Shown: piece by piece, positions 6,303 through 57,988 of the stretch
Position numbering within the stretch: the stretch's first letter is position 1
Layout: each line of letters begins with the position of its first letter
Assembly (NCBI GenBank): GCA_944325195.1
Contig: CALUZB010000004.1
Coordinates: 310,001-374,000, forward strand
Source of the DNA: an uncultured Desulfovibrionaceae bacterium
Lineage (GTDB): Bacteria; Desulfobacterota; Desulfovibrionia; Desulfovibrionales; Desulfovibrionaceae
Direction of reading: 5' to 3'
Length of the DNA stretch: 64,000 bases
Notes under the pieces: generated by a model
What the model was told of the DNA's origin: nothing
The model's database searches: none
What the model saw: the letters and a program-made list of their open reading frames with translations, nothing else
Program-made: the position numbers and the translations under genes

Positions 6303-6944
6303 CTACTCACAGCTTCGAATAAAATTTGTGAGAGTAATTTTCTCTCTCTTAGGCAATGGTATTCCATCTTTTTGAGCTGCTTCCTTACATTTGAGGAAGT
6401 AGGCCATGTTTCTTGCCAGTATACGCATTGTTTGCAGACCTTCATGGTCCTGCTTAACGTCATCGGCATTTGCACCATGAACCATATTCCAGTATTGAGA
6501 TGAAATAATGGGCATTTGTACCAGTGTAAAGTATTTATTGAGCTGATCGAAGGTGGCGGTAGTTCCGGCGCGTCTGGCCGATACCACCGCGGCAGCCGGT
6601 TTCAGATAGAAAACATCGTGTCCGCCGTTCATTCCTGCATAAAAAGCACGATCCATAAAAGATGTCATCGCACCGCCAACAGCCGCCCAATGGACAGGAG
6701 AACCGAAAACATAGCCATCAAATTCGCCGGCTATTTCCAGAAATTCATTGACTCTGTCCTTAAAAATACACCTTCCCAGCGTGACACATTTTTTACAGTC
6801 AATACAGCCTGCAAGGGGTTTGATACCAATCCAGAACATAGTTGTTTCTATGCCTTCCTGCTCAAGTGTATTCTTTACTTCAGACAGAGCAGTATATGTG
6901 CAACCGTGCTCATGGGGACTTCCGTTCACAAGAATAACTTTCAT
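6303..6944 (-). CDS. Iron-sulfur flavoprotein, NAD(P)H-dependent FMN reductase family
   Basis: A 213-residue flavodoxin-fold protein starting MKVILVNGSPHEHGCT, with the phosphate-binding loop NGSPHEHG. Cysteines follow the pattern C-x2-C-x2-C-x5-C (GCIDCKKC...GRC), the [4Fe-4S] signature of iron-sulfur flavoproteins. It probably passes electrons between ferredoxin or NAD(P)H and a small acceptor in the cytoplasm. GGAG sits seven bases before the ATG. It is the last gene of the AraC-headed block and lies 33 bp after the SDR gene. Local GC is clearly lower here than at the start of the block. Confidence 0.88.
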   Translation of the reverse strand: MKVILVNGSPHEHGCTYTALSEVKNTLEQEGIETTMFWIGIKPLAGCIDCKKCVTLGRCIFKDRVNEFLEIAGEFDGYVFGSPVHWAAVGGAMTSFMDRAFYAGMNGGHDVFYLKPAAAVVSARRAGTTATFDQLNKYFTLVQMPIISSQYWNMVHGANADDVKQDHEGLQTMRILARNMAYFLKCKEAAQKDGIPLPKREKITLTNFIRSCE

Positions 6945-6977
6945 CGCGTTTCTCCATTTATCGTGTTGTCCATAGAG

Positions 6978-7811
6978 TTATATATCTGTTTGAATGCTGA
7001 GGTCTTTCCATTTTGCGACTTCCTCAGCGCGTGACGCAAAAACTTTCTCAGCAAGTTGAACGGCAATGGAGCCGAGCAGAAGACGAAAAGGACTTTCCTT
7101 GCCTTCAACAGCTTTAATGATGACTTCAGCGGCTTTATTGTTATCTCCCCAACCATTTATTACAGAGTCTTCAAGATTTTTAATTCTGACTTTCCGTTTT
7201 CCTGCTGTATTCTGATAGTCTTCTATATTGTGTTCGTTGATTGCAATGGAGCGATAGAAAAAATCCGTCTTAAACGGTCCTGGCTCTACTACCATGACTT
7301 TTATGCCCAATGGATTTACTTCTTTTCTAAGACCATCAGACAGACCTTCGACAGCACATTTTGAGGCTCCGTAAAAAGCTGAGCCTTCAGCAGTGCTTAG
7401 CGCTGCTATGGAAGAAAAGTTGATAATGGTACCTTTTCTTTGTTCCCGCATATACGGCAGGACATGTTGTATCATGCGGATAGTGCCGAAGAAGTTTGTC
7501 TCAAATTGCTCTCTGATTTCTTTAAAAGAGCATTCTTCCACGGCCCCACGCAGGCAGTAGCCGGCATTATTGACCAGTACGTCAATTTTACCAAAGTGTT
7601 CAATCCCCTTTGTTATGGCAGTCTTAACTTCATCTTCTTTCGTAACATCTAATTGCAGAGGCAAAGCCGTTTGCGGAAAGCTTTTTCCGAATAGTTGCAC
7701 GGTTTCAAGGTTTCTGGCCGTAACAATTGCCTGATCTCCATGTTCAAGAACCGCTTTTGCCAAGCTTTTTCCAAGCCCGGAAGAACAGCCTGTAATCAAC
7801 CACGTATTCAT
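6978..7811 (-). CDS. Short-chain dehydrogenase/reductase
   Basis: Classical SDR of 277 residues. The cofactor motif TGCSSGLG is at residues 7-14, NNAG at 81-84, catalytic Ser in NFSS (133-134), and YGASK gives Tyr147 and Lys151. Arg32 and Asn34 after the second strand (TARNLE) suit NADP(H). The substrate is unknown; the closest general pattern is the SDR group annotated as oxidoreductases or short-chain dehydrogenases of aldehydes and ketones. The start lies four bases after the preceding hydrolase stop, so translation is probably coupled. A sample of the gene (7201-7260) is only 38% GC. Confidence 0.9.
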   Translation of the reverse strand: MNTWLITGCSSGLGKSLAKAVLEHGDQAIVTARNLETVQLFGKSFPQTALPLQLDVTKEDEVKTAITKGIEHFGKIDVLVNNAGYCLRGAVEECSFKEIREQFETNFFGTIRMIQHVLPYMREQRKGTIINFSSIAALSTAEGSAFYGASKCAVEGLSDGLRKEVNPLGIKVMVVEPGPFKTDFFYRSIAINEHNIEDYQNTAGKRKVRIKNLEDSVINGWGDNNKAAEVIIKAVEGKESPFRLLLGSIAVQLAEKVFASRAEEVAKWKDLSIQTDI

Positions 7812-7815
7812 TGTG

Positions 7816-8898
7816 TCAATCCACCCTCTTTTCTTTTAACCACTGTGACAGGATATCAGCTACCTTGAGATTATTCCGATCAGAAAAGGGGAAATGAGTA
7901 TTCCCATGAATTCCTATTTCCGGAAGATGTACCACAACAGCATCGCCGCCATGCCGGTTCACGGTGTCTGCCCATAGCTTTGCCATACTCACGGCTGCAC
8001 GCCAGTAGTCCTGATGCGGCTCTGATACAGGTTGTTCAGGGATGTTGTCGCCATAATAGATGACGATGGGTATGCGTGTCAAAGCCTTGAATTGTTCCAG
8101 CGGAATTTCAGCAGCCGTGAGCGGACCAAAAGAACTGGCGTTGGGGATCGGTTCCGGAAGCTCGCCTTTGGGAAAAACGAAACCGCTGCCGGGTTCATAG
8201 GCCACGACTGCCCGTACATTTTTGCTTTTCATTGCCGTCAGCCAGCCGGGGCCGCCACCCTGGGAGTGCGTAACCAAAATGCCTGGACCGATTTGCTCGA
8301 ATACAGCAGTCATAGCATCGGAAACAACCTCGGCGTCATATGGACCGGTATTTGGCGTCATCTGGCGGAAGAACTGGTTCAATGATTTGTCGCCTTGGGC
8401 AAACTGCGTTCCTTTGAAAAAGTCCGGCCATATTCCGAGCCGGAACTGCCCGAACCAGAACTGTTCGTCAGGAGTAGCCTCAACTGTGGCGGAAATGGTG
8501 CTGCGCCCGGCGTCGCCGCGCCTGGGTTGATCTACCAGGTAAACACCGAATCCGCGGTGCAGAAAAATATTTTGAAACCCCTCCCGTCCATCGGGAGTAC
8601 TTTCCCACGTCTTGGCGGACTGGCCCGCTCCGTGCAGAAAAACCAGAGGGTATTTTCTGGCATGTACCGGTACTTGATAGAATACATAGGCGTGGTCACC
8701 ATGCAATGTCTGTCCGGCTGCCTGGGGATTCAGCGGGTTATACGGTTCCTTTGCGGGAATGACTGTCCCCCCCGCGGCAAAACTTCCCTGCTCCTTGATG
8801 ACCAATGGCTTGGAAACTGTTTCATCAGCCATTGCGGCTGTCGCTGTGACAAGTCCAGCCGCAAGCAGTAACCCGGCAAGAAATGTTCTTGATTTCAT
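7816..8898 (-). CDS. Exported alpha/beta hydrolase
   Basis: 360 residues with a signal peptide ending AMA at 22-24. The alpha/beta-hydrolase fold shows the oxyanion segment FLHGAG (88-93), the nucleophile elbow THSQGG with Ser212, an acidic residue near YYGDN, and a late His in GIHGNTHF. The family includes esterases, lipases and amidases; the substrate cannot be read from the sequence. GAGGAG stands eight bases before the ATG. It is one of four exported hydrolases in this gene block. Confidence 0.88.
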   Translation of the reverse strand: MKSRTFLAGLLLAAGLVTATAAMADETVSKPLVIKEQGSFAAGGTVIPAKEPYNPLNPQAAGQTLHGDHAYVFYQVPVHARKYPLVFLHGAGQSAKTWESTPDGREGFQNIFLHRGFGVYLVDQPRRGDAGRSTISATVEATPDEQFWFGQFRLGIWPDFFKGTQFAQGDKSLNQFFRQMTPNTGPYDAEVVSDAMTAVFEQIGPGILVTHSQGGGPGWLTAMKSKNVRAVVAYEPGSGFVFPKGELPEPIPNASSFGPLTAAEIPLEQFKALTRIPIVIYYGDNIPEQPVSEPHQDYWRAAVSMAKLWADTVNRHGGDAVVVHLPEIGIHGNTHFPFSDRNNLKVADILSQWLKEKRVD

Positions 8899-8910
8899 CG
8901 GTGCTGCTCC

Positions 8911-9891
8911 TCATTTTTTCTTTGTTAATTGTTGTTCCCAGAAATGGACGGCATCCTCCAGCCAACCTTCGGCATCTGTACCCACACCTGTCCCGAAACC
9001 GTGACCGGCATGGTGATACAGGTGAAATTCCACTGTAATTCCGGCCCGTTTCAGAGCATTTATTCTCTGTTTCATCGTGTATGGACTGGCTATGGGGTCA
9101 TCGGAGCTGACCACGGCGAAGGTCGGCGGATCAGCTTTCGTGTAGCGGCTATGTCCTGTGTAGGCCATAACGACGGCGGCGGGACGTGGAAGATCATTTC
9201 CGCCAAAAGCCACGGCGCCATATGAACCCAAATCGGCCGCCATGCGCGCCCCGGCCGAGCCGCCCCATACGGAATAGCCCCGGGTGGACACATTCAGTTC
9301 TTCCGCATGGCGAAAAATCCAGGAAAGCGCGGCGGCCATGTCTTCATACGCCACTGTCGGATCGCCGGTACGGTATTGCAGGACAAAAGCGTTGTACCCC
9401 TTGCGGCTCAGCATGTCCGCTAATGGAAAGCCTTCATGCAGGGAACCTACATAGGCAAAACCGCCGCCCGGAAAAATCAGGGCAAAAGGTGCGCCCGGCT
9501 TCCCTCTGAAATAAAACAGCCCGGTGCGGGCGCGCTTTTGTTGCTCCTCATAAAAGCCGTAAAATACGGTCTCTCCAGCGGAAATGTCGGCGATCATACG
9601 ATTGACTGCCTGTAGGACGATATGCGGCTGCACATGGCTGTGCCAGGGCATGAGCCTGCTGACTTCGCGTAAGGGCAAGCTGCTTTGCGCATCCTGTTGT
9701 CTTGGAACCAGATGCTCCCCAAAACCGGTAAAAGCGGGATGATTCACCATATCAGATACGGTATCTGATTCTGTAAGCCGGGTATGTTCAGCCATGTCGC
9801 CCTCTGTATGGCCTCCCGCGTAAGGTACGGCCAAGGCAAAGAAAGTTGTTATTCCAACCGCTGAAAAGAGGATATGAAGCGGTTTTTTCAT
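8911..9891 (-). CDS. Exported alpha/beta hydrolase, carboxylesterase-like
   Basis: 326 residues from the ATG at 9891, which has GGAG six bases upstream; an upstream frame to 9945 would overlap the previous gene. The first 27 residues form a signal peptide (LHILFSAVGITTFFALAVPYA). PGGGF at 141-145 is an HGGG-like oxyanion loop, GGSAG at 210-214 gives the nucleophile Ser212, Asp264 (SSDDP) and His297 (HAGHGF) complete the triad. This is the arrangement of hormone-sensitive-lipase-like and BD-FAE esterases acting on acylated sugars or xenobiotic esters. It follows the aldo/keto reductase gene. Confidence 0.88.
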   Translation of the reverse strand: MKKPLHILFSAVGITTFFALAVPYAGGHTEGDMAEHTRLTESDTVSDMVNHPAFTGFGEHLVPRQQDAQSSLPLREVSRLMPWHSHVQPHIVLQAVNRMIADISAGETVFYGFYEEQQKRARTGLFYFRGKPGAPFALIFPGGGFAYVGSLHEGFPLADMLSRKGYNAFVLQYRTGDPTVAYEDMAAALSWIFRHAEELNVSTRGYSVWGGSAGARMAADLGSYGAVAFGGNDLPRPAAVVMAYTGHSRYTKADPPTFAVVSSDDPIASPYTMKQRINALKRAGITVEFHLYHHAGHGFGTGVGTDAEGWLEDAVHFWEQQLTKKK

Positions 9892-9941
9892 GAGTTTCTC
9901 CAAACAAGACGGAGGCGATTTTTTCACAGCAACATAGGCTT

Positions 9942-10904
9942 TCAAAAATGCGTTTCATCCACATTAATTTGTGCCAGTGCAGCATTGATGGCCGCCAGCT
10001 CGTCACTTGAAAGCTCGACGAGTGTTGCCCCCAGATTTTCTTCCAGGCGCTGCAGGCTGGTCGTGCCGGGAATAGGAATGACAAAAGGACGTTGCGCCAG
10101 TTCCCACGCAAGAACAATCTGGGCGGCTGTCGCCCTCTTCTGTTCGGCCACAGCCCGAATGAGATTGAGCAGCGCCTGATTGTGTTCCATAACTTCCGGC
10201 TTGAATCTCCCCATGAAGCTGCGAAAGTCGCCTTCGCCGTACACGGTATCAGGGGTGAAGCGCCCGCTCAGAAAACCGTTGCCCAGAGGACTGTAGGCGA
10301 CAAAGGCGATGTTCATGGCCGCGCACAGGTCAAACAGCCCCTGTTCAGGCTCGCGCCACAGCATGGAATACTGGTTTTCCACCGCGGCCAATGGGCAGAC
10401 GGCATGGGCGCGCTTCATATAGTCCACAGGTGCGTTGGAAAGACCCCAACCCAAGATTTTTCCTTCCTTCATCAGCGCGTTCATAGTTTCAGCGACTGTT
10501 TCCGGCTCCACGTTAGGGTCCACACGATGTTGATAATAGAGATCGATATGGTCGGTTTTGAGTCGGAGAAGGGAACCTTCCACCTGTTGGCGAATAGACG
10601 CAGGGCTGCTGTCCAGCAGATTGACAAGGTTACCGTCTACAATACGTTGCCCGACAATGCCGAATTTTGTTGCCAACACAACCTGGTCACGGATAGAAGA
10701 GAAAGCTTCTCCCAGTAACTCCTCATTGGCCGTGCCGTAAACAACGGCGGTATCAAAGAACGTACAGCCTAACTCCACGGCATGGCGGAGCAGTTTGAGC
10801 ATGTCTTCTCTGGGAGCAGGCTTGCCATAGGCGTGATCCATGCCCATGCAGCCAAGTCCGATTTCAGAAACGGACAGGCCGTTTCCCAACTGACGTTGTT
10901 TCAT
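9942..10904 (-). CDS. Aldo/keto reductase
   Basis: NADPH-dependent reductase of aldehydes or ketones, TIM-barrel family, 320 residues. The catalytic tetrad is visible: Asp51, Tyr56, Lys80 and His126. The C-terminal IPGTTSLQRLEENLGA motif binds the cofactor phosphate. No signal peptide, so cytoplasmic. GGAG lies nine bases before the ATG. In E. coli the AraC-type activator YqhC switches on an aldehyde reductase and an aldo/keto reductase; the AraC gene at the head of this block is of that type, which makes aldehyde removal a reasonable guess. Confidence 0.93.
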   Translation of the reverse strand: MKQRQLGNGLSVSEIGLGCMGMDHAYGKPAPREDMLKLLRHAVELGCTFFDTAVVYGTANEELLGEAFSSIRDQVVLATKFGIVGQRIVDGNLVNLLDSSPASIRQQVEGSLLRLKTDHIDLYYQHRVDPNVEPETVAETMNALMKEGKILGWGLSNAPVDYMKRAHAVCPLAAVENQYSMLWREPEQGLFDLCAAMNIAFVAYSPLGNGFLSGRFTPDTVYGEGDFRSFMGRFKPEVMEHNQALLNLIRAVAEQKRATAAQIVLAWELAQRPFVIPIPGTTSLQRLEENLGATLVELSSDELAAINAALAQINVDETHF

Positions 10905-10995
10905 ATTTGTTTTCTCCGCTATACCTGCATGGCAGGTTTGGGTTCAATTTTATAACTGATGATTTCATAGTGTTTCCATTACATAATCTGAAAGA

Positions 10996-12071
10996 TCACT
11001 TCAGATTATTGCGGAAAAAGGCTTCAAGCTTGTCAAAGGGAATCAGATCGATTTTGTCATAGAGATCGAAGTGTCCGGCGTTTTTGACGATGAAAAGTTC
11101 CTTGGGTTCAGCGGCTCGGGCATAGGCGTCTTCCGAGAAGGGGCGGGAGTGCGCCTTTTCCCCCATGATGAAAAGCATGGGGCGCGGTGAAATTGTTTCA
11201 ATATCATTGAAGGGATAAAAGTTCATGAATTTGATGTTCGTGGCCTTGTCGGAGCGGGTGTTGATTTCAAACGGCTCCCCTTTGGGAATAAATTCGCCCC
11301 TGCCATGATAAAAGGCATGGGAAGCCTTACGGGCGGCCGGAGCGTTTTCATCAACCTTGAACGGGGAACCGCCCACAAAAACTTGCTCGCCGCCAAGGAA
11401 ATCGGCATAGCGCTGTGCAGCGGCCTCGGCGATGTTTTTTTGCGTTGTTCGAGAGAGATGGAGCCGCGCAGGCCGCTGCGACGCATTTCTCCTATGTTGT
11501 ACATGCTCACGGTGGCAACGGCCTTCATTCGCGGATCGATTTTCGCGGCGCTGATGACGAAACTGCCGCTTCCGCAAATGCCGAGAATGCCGATTTTTTC
11601 CCGATCCACAAAGTCGCGGGTGCCGAGAAAGTCCACGGCGGCGCTGAAGGTTTCGGCGTATATGTCAGGCGCGATGCCGTGGCGCGGGATGCCGCCGCTT
11701 TCTCCCCAGAACTGCTGATCGACGGCAAGGGTCACAAAACCGCGAGCCGCAAGCTGAGCACCGTAGACGCTTGAAGCCTGTTCCTTGACCGCCCCCATCG
11801 GATGGCCGATGACAATGGCGCTCGCCTTGCCTTTAAGCTGCCTTGGCATGAACAGATTGCCGACAACTTCCATGCCGTACTGATTGCTGAAACTCACACG
11901 ATACAGCCGGACGTTGTCGTTGACGGAAAAGGTCTTGAAATCGCGGCTGGTGATTTCTGTCATGGTGGTTGCGGGCTTTTTTCCCTCCTGCCCGGCATGT
12001 GCCTGGGGTATGGTCATGAGGGAGACAACGCAGCAAAAAAGGCAAATACGCAGCCATTTAATCGAATGCAT
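10996..12071 (-). pseudogene. Exported DLH-like hydrolase, split by a frameshift at a run of seven A
   Basis: The ATG at 12071 has GGAG six bases upstream and begins a signal peptide (CVVSLMTIPQAHA). The protein then follows the paralogue at 12678-13736 closely, including the elbow GICGSG and KAVATVSMYNIGEMRRSG. At a T7 run on the plus strand (11435-11441, A7 in the message) homology passes to the -1 frame (TQKNIAEAAAQRYADFLGG) and continues without a stop to 10996. Only this one lesion is present, so it may be a recent mutation, a homopolymer sequencing error, or slippage that yields some full product. If intact it would be about 358 residues. Confidence 0.8.
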
Positions 12072-12096
12072 GACACGCTCCAGAGAGGATATGCTG

Positions 12097-12579
12097 TTAC
12101 CGGGCGGTATACTGTTCATCACTGACCTTTTCCATCCAGGTGACGCTTTTGCCGTCCAGGCGTTCGCCGATGGCGAGATGGGTCATGGCGGCATCGGGAG
12201 CAGCGCCGTGCCAGTGCTTGACATTGGGAGGGCACAGCACCACGTCCCCTTGCCGAATGACCTGAATCGGGCCGCCCCATTCCTGGGTCAGCCCGGTGCC
12301 GAACGTGACGATAAGCGTTTGTCCCAGCGGATGGCTATGCCAGTTGGTGCGCGCGCCCGGCTCAAAGGTGACGTAGGCGCCGTAGACGCGTTGCGGAGCC
12401 TGGGTGGCAAAAGCCGGATCAACGCGGACGCTGCCCGTGAAATTCTGGCTGGGAGCCGTGGACGAAGGGCGGGAACCGCCAGGAATCACGATCTGTCCCC
12501 GGGGTTCCGCATGGGCCGGAGGCACGGCCATGCTCCCGGCAAGCAGCAGGCAAAGGGTGAAAAGAGCGAGGCGTTTCAT
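12097..12579 (-). CDS. Exported cupin-domain protein
   Basis: 160 residues from the ATG at 12579 (GGAG six bases upstream; a frame reaching 12654 is less likely). Signal peptide ending PAHA at about 24. A single cupin barrel carries metal-ligand histidines His81 and His83 (NWHSH) and His122 and His124 (KHWHG). The sequence resembles the small cupins found beside carboxymuconolactone decarboxylases. It may be a metal-dependent isomerase, decarboxylase or oxygenase. It sits between two related hydrolase genes and ends 25 bp before the start of the frameshifted one. Confidence 0.9.
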
Positions 12580-12677
12580 GATCTTCTCCGTAGCAGGTTC
12601 GGCGGCGTCGGGCAGGAGGGCTTTTTCGTGCTGGCCGCCGTAGCCCTCCTGCATGGAACCGCCTTGTCGACGACGAA

Positions 12678-13736
12678 CTATTTCAGATTCTTGCCGTAGA
12701 ATGCCGTGAGCCTGGCAACGGCCTGATCCACATATTCAGGCACAAAGTAGGTCTGGATATGCGTGGCTCCGGGAATCTTGAAGAGTTCCTTGTCCTTGGT
12801 GCCCGTCGCCTTCTTGAAGGCCTCTTCGGACATGTACAGCGAGTCGGCCTTTTCCCCGGCCATCAGCAACAGAGGAACATTGATCAGGTTGATGTTGTCC
12901 ATGGCGTCCCAGGTCATGAGATCCATGAGACTGCTGGTCGTATAGCGGAACGTGGAGTTGGGATGCCGGTGCGTCTTTCCGTAGTACATCATGCCTTCAC
13001 GGTAGAGATCGGTGGGAATCTTGCTGATGCTTTCCTCGGTAAGAGCGTCAAAATCGACGTTGCCGGAATAGCTGATCTCCCCTGTGGCGACTTCCCTGGC
13101 GCGGGCGTCGGAAGCTTCCTTCAGGCGGGCCTGGATGGAATCAAGCTGCGTGTTCATGTAGCCGTTGCGCCGTACCTGGCCGGAATTGAACATGCTCAGC
13201 GTGGCCACGGCCTTGAAACGCTTGTCGGACTTGGCGGCGTTCAGCGTATAGCCGCCACCACCACAGATGCCCAGAGCGCCGATGCGATTGGCGTCCACGC
13301 CGGGATACGTGCTGATATAGTCAGCCATGCCGTGGATGTCTTCGGTGCGGAACTGGGGCTTGTCCACATTGCGGGGGGTTCCCTCGCTGGCTCCCTGGTA
13401 GGAAGCGTCCGCCGCGATGGTGATATAGCCTTTTTCCGCCAGACGCTGCGCATACAGCCCGGCCACCTGTTCCTTGACGCCGCCATTGGGATGAGCCACC
13501 ACGATAGCGGGATATTTTTTCGTGGCCTCATATCCGGCGGGGGTGTAGACGTTGGCCGCGATTTTCAGGCCGTTCAGCGTATAGGTGACGGGATGGATGT
13601 TTACTTTTCCCTTGACGTTTTCCATGATGGCTCCTTTGTACACAAGACCGAACGGATTGTTTTCAGCCGCATTCGCAACACATGCGAAAGCAAGGGAGGA
13701 TGCCACTGCCAGCGTCGTCAGAAGCGTTTTTTTCAT
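12678..13736 (-). CDS. Exported dienelactone-hydrolase-like alpha/beta hydrolase
   Basis: 352 residues; ATG at 13736 with AGGAG six bases upstream. Signal peptide ending ANA at 21-23. The nucleophile elbow is GICGG with Cys158 where most alpha/beta hydrolases have Ser; cysteine is the nucleophile in dienelactone hydrolase. A late Asp (GEKAD) and His (GATHIQ) fit the rest of the triad. The protein is a tandem paralogue of the frameshifted hydrolase at 10996-12071. Local GC is high (63% over 13201-13260). It lies 33 bp downstream of the CMD-like gene. Confidence 0.9.
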
Positions 13737-13769
13737 GATGGTCTCCTGTTCCATAAAACTGCTATGGCT

Positions 13770-14504
13770 CTATTTTGCCTGCATTCTGCTTTGCAATACG
13801 GTGTCCAAACTCTTTTTCGCCAGTTCCGCTTCCTCCTTGCCGACTTTCGTTTCAAGCACGGATACAAACGCTTTCATTTGATCTTCGCTCAATCCGACAA
13901 CCAGGCAGCAGTTCAAATGGGAACGCAACTGCGTTGCGGCAGGAAGACTGGCCAATGCGGAAACCGTGGCCAGTTCCCGCTCCTGGAAGCTGAGAACATC
14001 ACGGCTGAAAATGTCGCCAAAAAGATGTTCCTTCAGAAAGGTGTCGATCATGGGCGCAAATTCATAGACCCGTCCGCTGGCAGGTCTGCCGATGACAGTG
14101 GTCTGATTCGCCGTGCCGAGTTCGCGGATGTTCGCCTTATCGGGCAAGGGGGCGGCATCGCGGCCCACTTCATCGTGAATGCCCTGAGCTTTCCGCTCAT
14201 CAAGCAAAGCAATGAAGGTGTTCAGACCCGTCAGGCTGCGCGGGAACCCCGTATAGGCATACATCTGCACCAGCACTTCCCGTATCTCGTTGATCGTCAT
14301 GCCGTTTTGCAGACCATCGGCAAGGGCTGCCTTCAGCTTTTCCACATTGCCGTTCGCCGTAAACGCCGCAATGGGGATAATGCTTTGCTGTTTGCCGCTC
14401 AATGCCGATACGGAATGCGTACTTTCGGCATGTGCAATCGCCGGCAATCCCATTGCTGCAGTACAGTATAGGCCCAAAATAACCGCGAATACCTTGGACA
14501 ACAC
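13770..14504 (-). CDS. Exported carboxymuconolactone-decarboxylase-like protein
   Basis: 244 residues with two CMD/AhpD-like helical domains. The first contains NGMTINEIREVLVQMYAYTG, the second RSHLNCCLVVGLSEDQ, whose His and paired Cys lie where this family has its active site. A signal peptide ends AIAHA near residue 26. Family members decarboxylate gamma-carboxymuconolactone or act as thiol peroxidase partners; the exported two-domain form has no assigned reaction that I know of. The GTG at 14504 is chosen because AGGAG precedes it by six bases. It is the first enzyme gene after the AraC regulator. Confidence 0.88.
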   Translation of the reverse strand: MLSKVFAVILGLYCTAAMGLPAIAHAESTHSVSALSGKQQSIIPIAAFTANGNVEKLKAALADGLQNGMTINEIREVLVQMYAYTGFPRSLTGLNTFIALLDERKAQGIHDEVGRDAAPLPDKANIRELGTANQTTVIGRPASGRVYEFAPMIDTFLKEHLFGDIFSRDVLSFQERELATVSALASLPAATQLRSHLNCCLVVGLSEDQMKAFVSVLETKVGKEEAELAKKSLDTVLQSRMQAK

Positions 14505-14578
14505 CAGACTCTCCTTGTTAATGTTGCATCAAAGTTTTCCTTTCGTTGAGAACAAAATAAGATTTCTCCGGCAAAGGA

Positions 14579-14609
14579 ACTATATGTAATCCAAGCGATT
14601 TTTTGCCTA
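14579..14609 (-). promoter_or_regulatory. Candidate activator-dependent promoter of the enzyme block
   Basis: On the minus strand TATAGT (14584-14579) forms a good -10 box about 75 bases before the GTG at 14504. Seventeen bases further upstream there is no good -35 box, only an A-rich stretch. A strong -10 with a poor -35 is typical of promoters that need an activator such as an AraC protein. Inference from pattern. Confidence 0.4.
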
Positions 14610-14645
14610 TTTCGCTCAGCGCTGTTTGCTTTATGGAAAAGCTAA

Positions 14646-14690
14646 AAACAGAAAAGCGTGGAAGCCTTATCACTTGAGGCTTCCACGCTT
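14646..14690 (-). terminator. Terminator downstream of the AraC gene
   Basis: A perfect 14-bp stem (14654-14667 with 14677-14690) around a nine-base loop, followed on the minus strand by a T-rich run (TTTTCTGTTTTT). It separates the regulator from the enzyme genes, so these are probably transcribed from their own promoter. Confidence 0.85.
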
Positions 14691-14714
14691 GAATTTATGA
14701 ATTTAATCAATAAA

Positions 14715-15614
14715 TTATGAACGTTTTTTAGCTACATCCCTACGGGGCGGGGCTCCGAACAGGCGTTTATATTCCCTGTTGAACTGTGAACCGCTTTCAT
14801 ATCCAACCATAAGCGCCGCGGTACCGGCATCCCTTCCTTCAAGCAGCATGAGGCGCTCGGCTTCATAAAGCCGCAGTCGCTTTTGGAATTGGAGTGGACT
14901 GAGATTGGTCACTTCTTTAAAATGTCGATTGAATGTTGAGGGAGCCATGTTGACTTTCCGAGCCAGTTCTTCCATGCGAAATGGGGCTGTGTAATTTTCC
15001 CGTAACCAAGAAATCGCTTGAGCAATTTGATTTGCCTGTGTTCCGTTTGTATTGAAAAGCCGCAGACAGCCACCTTGACTGCCGCTAAGCAAATAGAAAT
15101 GAATTTCACGGAGAATTAGAGGGGCTAAGACTGAAATTCGTGACGGGGTGTCAAGCAGACTCACAAGGCGTTTGAAGGCGTCCAAAAGCTCTTCACCGGC
15201 TTTAGAAATGACTATCGGATTGAGAGAAGCAGTGCTTTCCGTAACTATAGTAGGCAGCTCGGTAATTAATTGAGAGATGATATGTCTGTCGAGTTTGACG
15301 GACAGAGAAAGGAACGGGGCTTGTGGAGAGGCCTCAGTCACATGAAATACCCCCGGCATATCAATGCCGACGACAACACAATGATTTTTACCATAATTAG
15401 CCTCATGATCGCCAATCATCGAACGCTTAAATCCTTGCACAACCAATGCAACCATAGGGTGGTAAAAACAGCGTATTGCAGAAGTGTTTTCATCGTAACG
15501 AGTTAATGCCAAACCCGGAATAGGTGTTTCCAGCCTGGATTGTTCAGGGAGCCATTTCAACAATTTCTCTCTTAGAGAACCAGCCTGTTCTGGAATGGTT
15601 ATCGGATTACTCAT
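14715..15614 (-). CDS. AraC-family regulator, YqhC-like
   Basis: 299 residues: an AraC_N-type sensory domain (about 20-170) followed by a C-terminal double helix-turn-helix (about 195-290) with LARKVNMAPSTFNRHFK and the second helix region ALMVGYESGSQFNREYKR. This two-part layout is that of YqhC, which activates aldehyde reductase genes in E. coli. GGAG stands eight bases before the ATG. It heads the enzyme block on the same strand but is cut off from it by a strong terminator. The sequence motif TATCAG occurs twice just upstream (near 15650), perhaps for self-control. Confidence 0.92.
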   Translation of the reverse strand: MSNPITIPEQAGSLREKLLKWLPEQSRLETPIPGLALTRYDENTSAIRCFYHPMVALVVQGFKRSMIGDHEANYGKNHCVVVGIDMPGVFHVTEASPQAPFLSLSVKLDRHIISQLITELPTIVTESTASLNPIVISKAGEELLDAFKRLVSLLDTPSRISVLAPLILREIHFYLLSGSQGGCLRLFNTNGTQANQIAQAISWLRENYTAPFRMEELARKVNMAPSTFNRHFKEVTNLSPLQFQKRLRLYEAERLMLLEGRDAGTAALMVGYESGSQFNREYKRLFGAPPRRDVAKKRS

Positions 15615-56071: not shown

Positions 56072-56746
56072 CTACTTCTTGTAACCAAGTTCTGTCAACC
56101 ACACAGCAATATCAGGCTCTGCCCGTTCCACATCATTTCTTGACACGCTGAAACCGTTCTTTATTACCCGGGCAGAGGGTTGCAGGCGGGCAATAGTTTC
56201 AATTGTACGGGAAAACCCGCTTCCGCCGTGGGTATTGAACGGGATAATGGTTTTGCCGGAAAGATCGCAGCTCTCCAGGAAAGTGTATAAGATCATCGGC
56301 ATATCCGCCCACCAGTTGGGATAGCCTAAAAAAATCGTATCGTAGGAGCCGAGACTATCAATCCGACCCGAAATGGCCGGCCGGGCATTCCGCTTTTGTT
56401 CCTCTTTTGCCAGATCAACCAAGGCGTCGTGTTCTGTGGGGTATGGTCTTTCAGGTTCAATGCGAAAGATGTCTCCACCGGTCATATTCTGAATCAGTTG
56501 AGCTACATATTGCGTATTGCCCATCACCTTTCCGTCTATAACAACTGTACTGTTTTCTTCCTCTTGGGTCATGTTATGGGGATTGTCCGTTTCCGGCATG
56601 GAGAAATAGACAACCAGTATTTTCCCCTTTTCCGAATCCGCAGCTTCGGCAGACCCGGACAAGCTTGCATGAATTAATAAAACCGCCACTGCAAGCATTC
56701 CGATCAGTTTCAATGTCTGTCTATGGTAAATTCGCAACCTTTGCAT
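56072..56746 (-). CDS. Exported flavodoxin-family protein
   Basis: 224 residues with a signal peptide (LIGMLAVAVLLIHASLSGSAEA) and then a flavodoxin fold: VVYFSMPETDN phosphate loop, IFLGYPNWWADMPM and FNTHGGSGFSRT around the flavin. Proteins of this kind (long flavodoxin group) are common in anaerobes, but a secreted one must get its FMN outside the cytoplasm. AGGAGAGG precedes the ATG. An inverted repeat lies upstream. Confidence 0.88.
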   Translation of the reverse strand: MQRLRIYHRQTLKLIGMLAVAVLLIHASLSGSAEAADSEKGKILVVYFSMPETDNPHNMTQEEENSTVVIDGKVMGNTQYVAQLIQNMTGGDIFRIEPERPYPTEHDALVDLAKEEQKRNARPAISGRIDSLGSYDTIFLGYPNWWADMPMILYTFLESCDLSGKTIIPFNTHGGSGFSRTIETIARLQPSARVIKNGFSVSRNDVERAEPDIAVWLTELGYKK

Positions 56747-57988
56747 AATCCTCTCCTATGATCTGCCTGGTATTCATCATTAACTTGTTTCAATCATTTG
56801 CCTATTGAAACTTTGCATTGCTCGTAACAGGTAGAAATCGTCAGGCCTTGCCTTAAACAGATCCCTAATAAACAAAACCAAAAGAATTGGGCTCAGACAT
56901 GGTTACCGCACCTGTAAAATTCAATAACAATGCTATGATAGAGTATCGACGATAGCCCCATTCAGCTAAACTAAACTTTCCGGAGCCGGGATTCCATACC
57001 CAATCCTTGCAATTCTTTGCCTGATCCGCTCTCTGGAACAGATGACTAAACTGCAGCAGATTGATTCACCCTGTTTTGGTTTGACAAATTTCAATATAAA
57101 GAGGCATGGCATAGTTTTCCGTAACCAGGGGCGCCTTGGCAATTTGACCAGCTCTGTCATTGTGGTTGAACAACCACAAGCAATCCACCCGCCGGTAAGC
57201 AAAATAAAAGTGAATTCCCCTGGTAATGGAGCAAGAACCGGAATTCTTGAGGGAATATCCAACAGAGCAACAAGGCACGCTAATGCCTCATAAGCTCTTC
57301 TGCTACTTCAAAAACAACTGCCGGCGTATCAGGAGAGCTTTAATATGCAGCAACTATAGGCGCTTCCATTGCCAGAGGAGTAATAACCAGTCTGCCCAGT
57401 TTTATGGATAATCAGAGAAAAGGGGCTGTTGATGAGGCCAGGGTGATATGAAGTACGTCCGGCATAAAATGCCAACTATCATGCGGTGATGTTCTCCATA
57501 ACCGGCTTCACGATTTCCGACTATGGACTGCCTGATTCCGTGCGCAACTAAAACGCCCATTAAGGTAATAAAAACACTTTACTGCAACAATCTCTTGAGC
57601 ATACCGGTAAAGTCAACCCCGCAACCGTTGTTTCCAGTCGTGGTTGTCTGGTGGGGGGCCATTTAAACACTTTATTTTTAAAAAGTACGTTGCCTTCTTT
57701 TACGCTCACAACCATACTGTCAGAGTTCCGACTTTTAAAGATACATGGTATGTCTATCCGGGCAGAGTGCGGCAAGTCAGCCACAGTGTATAAACTTGCC
57801 ACACGCCCGGTTTGAATCAATACCGGCTTGTCGTTTTAATCTCTGCCGTCCAACATATATATCCGGCCTGACCATGTGGTCACGATATCTTATCAGAGGT
57901 TAAAAACTGACTTTGCTTACATCTTGCAAATCTACTACTCATTGCCCTGCTCCATTCAAATGTACGACTTCATTTTCGAACAAACAGA
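56747..57988. other. Gene-poor 1.2 kb stretch, perhaps decayed
   Basis: No convincing gene. Minus-strand frames 56966-57262 (FTFILLTGGWIACGCSTTMTE) and 57560-57820 (VSVKEGNVLFKNKVFKWPP) contain protein-like pieces but have no good starts and no continuity; neighbouring frames carry related-looking pieces, as expected for a broken gene. No transposase, repeat or RNA gene seen. Confidence 0.5.
56787..56811. promoter_or_regulatory. Inverted repeat upstream of the exported flavodoxin
   Basis: GTTTCAAT and ATTGAAAC, perfect 8-bp arms, nine bases apart, 41 bases before the flavodoxin start. Likely operator for a dimeric regulator that I cannot name. Confidence 0.5.

Follow-up and report, generated by a model that had tools for sequence, protein, structure and literature searches.

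We report here that ten neighbouring minus-strand genes at positions 6303-15614 of a 64,000-nucleotide stretch of an uncultured Desulfovibrionaceae genome (G000:C4:310001-374000, hereafter the window; host genome of 2.48 Mb, 98% complete) probably form, judging from sequence, a reactive-electrophile regulon of the YqhC type to which an envelope arm has been added, the chemistry of the regulon being inferred. The block comprises an AraC-type regulator gene and nine enzyme genes, found just as a preliminary description of this DNA had located them. The evidence consists of a recurrent predicted operator, AGGCAA-N10-GGAT, which stands before the first enzyme gene, before an exported flavodoxin gene 42 kb away and in the yqhC-yqhD spacer of E. 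coli, of a core of enzyme genes that clusters in many different bacteria, and of a division by compartment, hydrolases being exported and reductases cytoplasmic. The features concerned are the following, export and cytoplasmic location being predictions here and throughout:

6303-6944, minus strand: FMN_red protein (PF03358) with a compact CX2CX2CX5C motif, the motif Cys being present in 8/8 aligned rows
6978-7811, minus strand: cytoplasmic short-chain dehydrogenase/reductase (SDR) oxidoreductase (NF004824, 311.7 bits against a cut-off of 298)
7816-8898, minus strand: ABH6, exported esterase-like hydrolase related to 4q34, 8gol and 1qlw, with conserved Ser, Glu and His
8911-9891, minus strand: ABH3, exported alpha/beta hydrolase, esterase-like (Abhydrolase_3, Peptidase_S9 and BD-FAE above cut-off)
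9942-10904, minus strand: cytoplasmic aldo/keto reductase (AKR; PF00248), with 0/23 of its open reading frame (ORF) cluster exported-like
10996-12074, minus strand: DLH2, exported hydrolase gene with a frameshift at the A7 run 11435-11441, its halves being in different frames
12097-12579, minus strand: exported cupin of the (R)-mandelonitrile lyase family (NF049940, 185.4 bits against a cut-off of 140; matches 4bif and 4uxa)
12678-13736, minus strand: DLH1, exported YcjY-like hydrolase with C158 as likely Cys nucleophile (PF01738; matches 5xb6 and 2hdw)
13770-14504, minus strand: exported two-domain CMD protein without CxxC (PF02627)
14588-14612, minus strand: predicted operator before CMD, core AGGCAA-N10-GGAT, with 2 mismatches to a longer pattern (held-out matrix 18.8)
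14654-14690, minus strand: intrinsic terminator 3' of the AraC gene (-24.5 kcal/mol, z -5.1, U-rich tail)
14715-15614, minus strand: AraC_N/HTH_18 regulator of a YqhC-like family, on its own transcript (PF06719 151 bits, PF12833 69 bits)
56072-56746, minus strand: exported flavodoxin (Flavodoxin_4, PF12682, 98.4 bits) with a signal-peptide-like N-terminus, predicted regulon member 42 kb off
57002-57026, minus strand: second predicted operator of the same type, 0 mismatches (held-out matrix 29.4, top of the 64 kb)

The enzymes of the block belong to the Pfam families CMD, DLH, Cupin_2, Aldo_ket_red, adh_short and FMN_red, together with two more alpha/beta hydrolases, and the regulator combines AraC_N with HTH_18. 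Intergenic gaps, measured from the likely starts, run from 4 to 98 bases, and a GGAG-type ribosome binding site, previously assigned to every enzyme gene, precedes eight of the nine enzyme starts, the SDR gene having GGGTGG instead. The earlier view that the AraC gene heads the block has to be given up: since the strong hairpin with a U-rich tail in the AraC-CMD gap (0/200 shuffles as good) closes the AraC gene and separates it from CMD, this gene is a neighbour of the enzyme transcript and not its head, which agrees with the transcript start of about 14570 that had itself been proposed. The nine enzyme genes are presumably co-transcribed. This hairpin lies outside the listing of our motif scan, which takes only loops of 3-8; the scan returned 16 terminators against 12.6 in shuffles, hence no useful excess, and a hairpin 3' of the FMN gene was rejected as a terminator (z -1.96, 6/200 shuffles equally good). 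A sigma-70-like promoter scan gave 8 sites against a shuffle mean of 8.9, with none on the minus strand in the AraC-CMD gap.

Regarding the operator, alignment of the AraC-CMD gaps of the window and of two relatives yielded a shared stretch that was refined to AGGCAA-N10-GGAT. The motif was first met before CMD genes, and a later training site (L036) lies between AraC and flavodoxin genes. In the window, it is found about 84 bases 5' of the CMD gene. Across 1.79 Mb, AGGCAA and GGAT are separated by a spacer of 10 in 28 matches, against 2-9 at each of the other spacers from 4 to 20. In the whole host genome, AGGCAA-N10-GGATY has three matches (before CMD, at 57002-57026 and within a reading frame), the reversed control having 0, and a fourth match, with 2 mismatches, lies at G000:C4:574391. 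When up to 2 departures from the longer pattern are allowed, the 15 CMD-carrying genomes hold 49 sites against 5 for the reversed control. At most 1 mismatch is seen in 18 sites, nine of which belong to the loci that supplied the motif, where they mostly precede Fe-ADH, CMD, flavodoxin, DkgA-like AKR and CMD, or FMN genes; the Fe-ADH genes of G134 and G086 are both preceded by operator sites. The nine sites found elsewhere precede the window flavodoxin gene (one), AKR genes (two), the gene of a Tat-type DUF362 protein (one) and those of metallo-beta-lactamase-fold proteins (two, one recognised by Pfam and one by likeness of its N-terminus, the family occurring in 4 loci), while the remaining three are ambiguous or within reading frames.

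A matrix derived from 21 training sites, at least one of which (L074) is probably a chance match, was applied to the window, to a second island of the host genome and to E. coli, all held out from training. In the 64 kb of the window, the two predicted operators come out first (29.4 and 18.8) and the third match reaches 7.0 bits. In the second island, the best site (15.8, the next being 0.7) lies between AraC and ABH6 genes, and in a stretch around the third AraC gene of the host genome (L124) the best match (10.6) does not adjoin that gene. Over 8 kb of E. coli K-12 sequence, the top match falls in the yqhC-yqhD spacer (17.5, the next being 9.3; 0/500 shuffles).

This places the block beside the E. 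coli YqhC system, which controls yqhD-dkgA. Its AraC-type regulator aligns with the one of the window over nearly the full length (30% identity across 294 aligned positions), the yqhC-yqhD spacer carries a matching site, as a sequence match only, and DkgA- and YqhD-like enzymes occur in related CMD loci. The comparison with YqhC made in the preliminary description gains from the operator type, although the identity of the regulators is low and their clades differ; the predicted regulon also differs from the E. coli one in being mostly exported. The AKR of the window shares 26% identity with DkgA, and a YqhD-like gene is absent from the block. YqhC has been described as a single-target regulator of yqhD-dkgA, which encode NADPH-dependent oxidoreductases, with the yqhC-yqhD spacer as its only binding site in genomic SELEX, as far as the cited passages go (PMC8249747), and glyoxal and furfural have been given as signals for YqhC activation of yqhD and dkgA, direct action on YqhC being left unclear in the cited part (PMC5297802). 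One locus (L037) bridges the YqhC system and the CMD-cupin set: there, the gene of a regulator of the YqhC clade diverges from a YqhD-like gene, after which come genes of the DLH2-like, cupin, CMD, FMN_red and AKR kinds.

The second line of evidence is conservation. With the window CMD protein as bait, we surveyed the neighbourhoods of 80 named CMD loci, the best of at least 572 candidates ranked by similarity; the taxa in their titles include Bacteroidota, Geobacter, relatives of Desulfobacter and Desulfovibrio, Bacillota, Pseudomonadota, Campylobacterota and others. Within 5 kb of CMD, homologues were found for the cupin in 67, DLH1 in 35, AKR in 31, ABH6 in 28 and AraC_N in 14 of these loci, and for SDR in 10, FMN in 7, DLH2 in 2 and ABH3 in 2. 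From 0-2.5 kb to 7.5-10 kb from CMD, matches per 100 kb fell from 18.9 to 0.4 for the cupin, from 7.5 to 0.4 for DLH1, from 6.0 to 0.4 for ABH6 and from 4.9 to 0.7 for AKR, while ABH3 (0.3 to 0.4) and DLH2 (1.0 to 1.1) showed no decay with distance in the same 80 loci. Because of these counts and of this decay, the core formed by CMD, cupin, DLH1, ABH6 and AKR is, at the level of sequence, a genuine neighbourhood, patchily spread in several phyla. The preliminary description had singled out the whole set as a candidate system, to be judged by whether its genes are neighbours elsewhere; this is so for the core, and rarely so for ABH3, SDR, FMN and DLH2. Gene content differs between CMD loci, and the exact nine-gene set was not found at the other loci compared. 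As for the two nearest relatives, G002 carries AraC, CMD, DLH1, cupin, ABH6, SDR and, farther off, FMN, and the G012 stretch has AraC, CMD, DLH1, cupin and ABH6. CMD exceeds 160 bits in 8/98 relatives besides the host genome, and in a phylum sample of 297 genomes (E 1e-20, window genome counted in each total) CMD occurs in 8 and ABH6 in 2, ABH6 directly adjoining CMD in G238.

That these genes are merely adjacent and unrelated in function is hence very improbable. Such a view would account for the GC mosaic across the block (0.428 to 0.636, with the cupin gene at 0.636, DLH1 at 0.565, AraC at 0.463, FMN at 0.442 and SDR at 0.428), for the one broken member, DLH2, and for the four genes rarely near CMD at other loci, but it is opposed by the clustering of the core on the same strand in many different bacteria and by the shared predicted operator, which also marks the exported flavodoxin gene.

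The third line of evidence concerns the compartments. Signal peptides and membrane segments were called by simple, crude rules whose only controls are cytoplasmic families. By these rules, signal-peptide-like N-termini are present in CMD, DLH1, cupin, the N-terminal part of DLH2, ABH3 and ABH6, and absent from AKR, SDR, FMN and AraC. The earlier count of six exported and three non-exported enzymes is reproduced in this way, except that the second DLH gene, being frameshifted, is not intact. Exported hydrolases facing cytoplasmic reductases, also claimed earlier, is correct for the window and mostly kept at other loci. Among homologues, exported-like N-termini were found in 58/60 CMD, 44/51 cupin, 32/34 DLH1 and 32/35 ABH6 proteins, in 0/23 of the AraC_N proteins, 1/13 SDR, 1/7 FMN and 0/9 Fe-ADH proteins, and in 0/11 members of a second cupin group; for the AKR cluster of the window, the figure is the 0/23 given above. 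An unbiased survey of neighbours, in which 1535 ORFs from 91 loci were clustered and one representative per cluster was scanned with Pfam, added Flavodoxin_4 flavodoxins (28/36 exported-like), SnoaL/DUF4440 proteins (30/31 SnoaL), carboxylesterases (17/17) and further regulators as recurrent neighbours, with DkgA-like reductases in 21/91 loci and YqhD-like ones in 9/91.

This split had been explained in the preliminary description by exported enzymes acting on an ester, lactone or ring compound and by cytoplasmic reductases taking over the products. Read as a catabolic pathway, this would mean that an aryl ester, a lactone or a ring is opened outside and that the products are processed inside, either to feed growth or to serve as an electron sink. 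Several exported hydrolases with intact catalytic residues, the membership of the CMD and DLH families and a carboxylesterase cluster in 17/91 loci would suit such a pathway. The inward flow that it implies finds no support, since polytopic, transport-type membrane proteins are scarce in CMD gene runs (7/410 genes, in 6/72 loci by the crude rule, the other 8 of the 80 loci having no CMD-family ORF in the set), intradiol dioxygenase (PF00775) has 0 matches in the 98% complete host genome against matches in 4/14 control genomes, and gene content varies among loci. The YqhC-type regulator and operator point the same way, so that a catabolic ester or lactone pathway is a less likely reading than the electrophile regulon. 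The beta-ketoadipate pathway with CMD as PcaC was rejected, the window CMD scoring 58.1 bits with the PcaC model TIGR02425, below its cut-off of 155.7, in a genome with 0 matches to PF00775.

Under the electrophile reading, the AraC_N regulator would bind the AGGCAA-N10-GGAT sites and, with a reactive electrophile as presumed inducer, turn on two transcripts, the CMD-to-FMN operon and the exported flavodoxin gene 42 kb off. CMD, the metal cupin, the Cys- and Ser-hydrolases and the flavodoxin would act on reactive carbonyls, lactones or esters by hydrolysis, cleavage or reduction while these are still outside the cytoplasm, and the cytoplasmic AKR, SDR and FMN protein would reduce the compounds that enter. 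More tentatively, the set may represent, in many phyla, an envelope arm of a YqhC-type electrophile response, with exported enzymes and cytoplasmic aldehyde reductases sharing one operator, the former detoxifying reactive carbonyls before their entry.

Several observations weigh against these proposals. On the side of the operator, the CMD site of the window deviates from the longer pattern at 2 positions, about 250 bases separate the second site from the flavodoxin start, one of the three host-genome matches falls within a reading frame (a large ORF with an ABC-type ATPase-like translation, which led us to drop this match as chance), some of the 28 spacer-10 matches are probably fortuitous (3.4 being expected at equal base use), and one genome, G351, carries CMD with 0 sites within 2 mismatches. 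On the side of the regulator, the window AraC sits in a 13-row group (100/99) outside the YqhC clade, in which YqhC groups with L098, L037 and L039 (100/98), and none of the Cys columns extends through all 33 regulators, the best-filled one having 18, for which reason a shared Cys sensor was rejected. Moreover, the enzymes are found under more than one kind of switch, many loci having other types of regulator (LysR type, or AraC without AraC_N). Regarding the enzymes, one AKR ORF cluster near CMD is exported-like in 8/12, and the 80 CMD loci, chosen as the best candidates, are not a random sample. Finally, ChIP-exo is described as giving a limited number of YqhC sites in vivo (PMC8464067), and the single YqhC site may not be the whole picture.

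The individual enzymes bear on two further explanations. In an oxidant-defence scheme, CMD would be a peroxidase resembling AhpD or RclX, and the whole set would respond to HOCl or peroxides. A CMD-family gene is reported in a review to be HOCl-induced in Burkholderia cenocepacia (PMC7464077) and RclX of P. aeruginosa has been modelled as AhpD-like (PMC7950407); as presented in the cited passages, a CxxC motif goes with such proteins (PMC3426412, PMC7950407), and this motif is present in 0/61 rows of the CMD alignment, window row included. The commonest Cys column of this alignment holds just 29/61 rows. An AhpD-like identity of CMD was rejected on the absence of CxxC, and oxidant defence appears quite improbable as the function of the set. 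The same residues set the block apart from the 'COE' neighbourhoods of ECF41 sigma factors, which resemble it in that a regulator gene adjoins carboxymuconolactone decarboxylase or oxidoreductase genes, but whose CMDs carry CxxC according to the passages concerned (PMC3426412), while window-type CMDs lack it and the regulator here is of AraC type. Of note, a relative's CMD gene (L002, G012:C39:78769-79482) contains an in-frame TAG.

The cupin keeps H81, H83, Q87 and H122 in 52/52 rows and H124 in 51/52, and the pattern HxHx3Q...H, which we take to be that of the metal ligands, is present in 52/52 rows, the cupin also aligning with 4bif. We take 4bif and 4uxa to be bacterial cupin hydroxynitrile lyases, a group to which the name GtHNL presumably belongs. 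Compared with those of the Granulicella type (PMC5413884, relevant passages), the window cupin shares the sequence family, the HxHx3Q...H ligands and the further His, but it is exported, stands in a stress-type cluster and is a putative enzyme of this kind. The score above the NCBIfam mandelonitrile lyase cut-off, the retained ligands and the two structural matches could also indicate processing of cyanohydrins or cyanogenic compounds, in which the cupin would be a genuine hydroxynitrile lyase and release an aldehyde to the reductases. Cupin homologues in 67/80 CMD loci of very different bacteria seem too widespread for one plant substrate and, to our knowledge, no Pfam family of the block is known for cyanide handling, so that we regard this explanation as rather remote. 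A fused cupin-CMD protein with an exported-like N-terminus occurs at L040:8670-10262, and such fusions are also present in further ORF clusters with long CMD proteins, which fits a joint function of cupin and CMD.

Among the hydrolases, C158 of DLH1 is kept in 35/35 rows and C167 of DLH2 in 10/10, both presumably acting as nucleophiles, as in dienelactone hydrolase-like enzymes. The halves of DLH2 (11223-12122 and 10996-11577) are interrupted at the A7 run, and homologous half-pairs at other loci lie in one frame in 12/12 cases. The break may be fixed, a site of slippage or switching, or an assembly error, possibly a systematic homopolymer error; in five stretches of the host genome, most other runs of at least 7 inside genes lie in intact frames. 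ABH6 keeps S212 and H335 in 36/36 rows and E235 in 35/36, and matches 8gol over most of its length and 1qlw over part of it, an esterase family presumably including the enzymes named Esterase 713 and SulE, although its closest entry, 4q34, is an uncharacterised protein. Matches of ABH3 in the PDB are weak, several being to esterases. The FMN protein, of FMN_red fold, has C47, C50, C53 and C59 in 8/8 rows, and its CX2CX2CX5C motif fits that of the iron-sulfur flavoproteins (Isf), which we take to be CX2CX2CX4-7C.

Related places exist in the host genome. The second island (L123:7429-10528) has an AraC gene 46% identical to that of the window, divergent from an ABH6 homologue; the operator-like site separates the two, and next to this pair lies a flavodoxin lacking a signal peptide. 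A Fer4-type aldo/keto reductase gene beside it (L123:6173-7314; G000:C4, ~79.2-80.3 kb) is also frameshifted at an A7 run. A third place (L031:7397-10362) contains genes for a LysR-type regulator, a cyclophilin-like exported protein, a cupin and CMD, and the held-out matrix found no strong operator there. In the window, the gap of about 1.2 kb between the flavodoxin gene and the next large gene (56747-57988) holds the best operator and no ORF above 98 aa, and may be a decayed piece of an older cluster. In the same-family genome G002, the regulator is almost the same as the one of Candidatus Mailhella excrementigallinarum, which makes Desulfovibrionaceae the probable family of the host genome. 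As to earlier work, we found no description of the gene set as a whole in openly licensed PubMed Central papers, an earlier account elsewhere being possible; the passages concerned of PMC5817063, PMC2631605, PMC10434189 and PMC7326052 name single CMD, cupin or reductase genes and never the set.

Reactive aldehydes and other electrophiles are usually seen as a cytoplasmic problem, to be solved by reductases and glyoxalases. If exported enzymes are indeed linked by an operator to this kind of switch, the electrophile response would extend to the cell envelope, and several widespread families that owe their names to homology alone would gain functions open to test. The envelope arm would likewise provide a natural role for bacterial cupin hydroxynitrile lyases and for exported two-domain CMDs. 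The DNA motif could be used to seek regulon members in unannotated genomes, and the matching site in the yqhC-yqhD spacer makes E. coli K-12 directly usable for experiment. If these proposals hold, many bacteria may use the set as a first barrier, outside the cytoplasm, to reactive chemicals.

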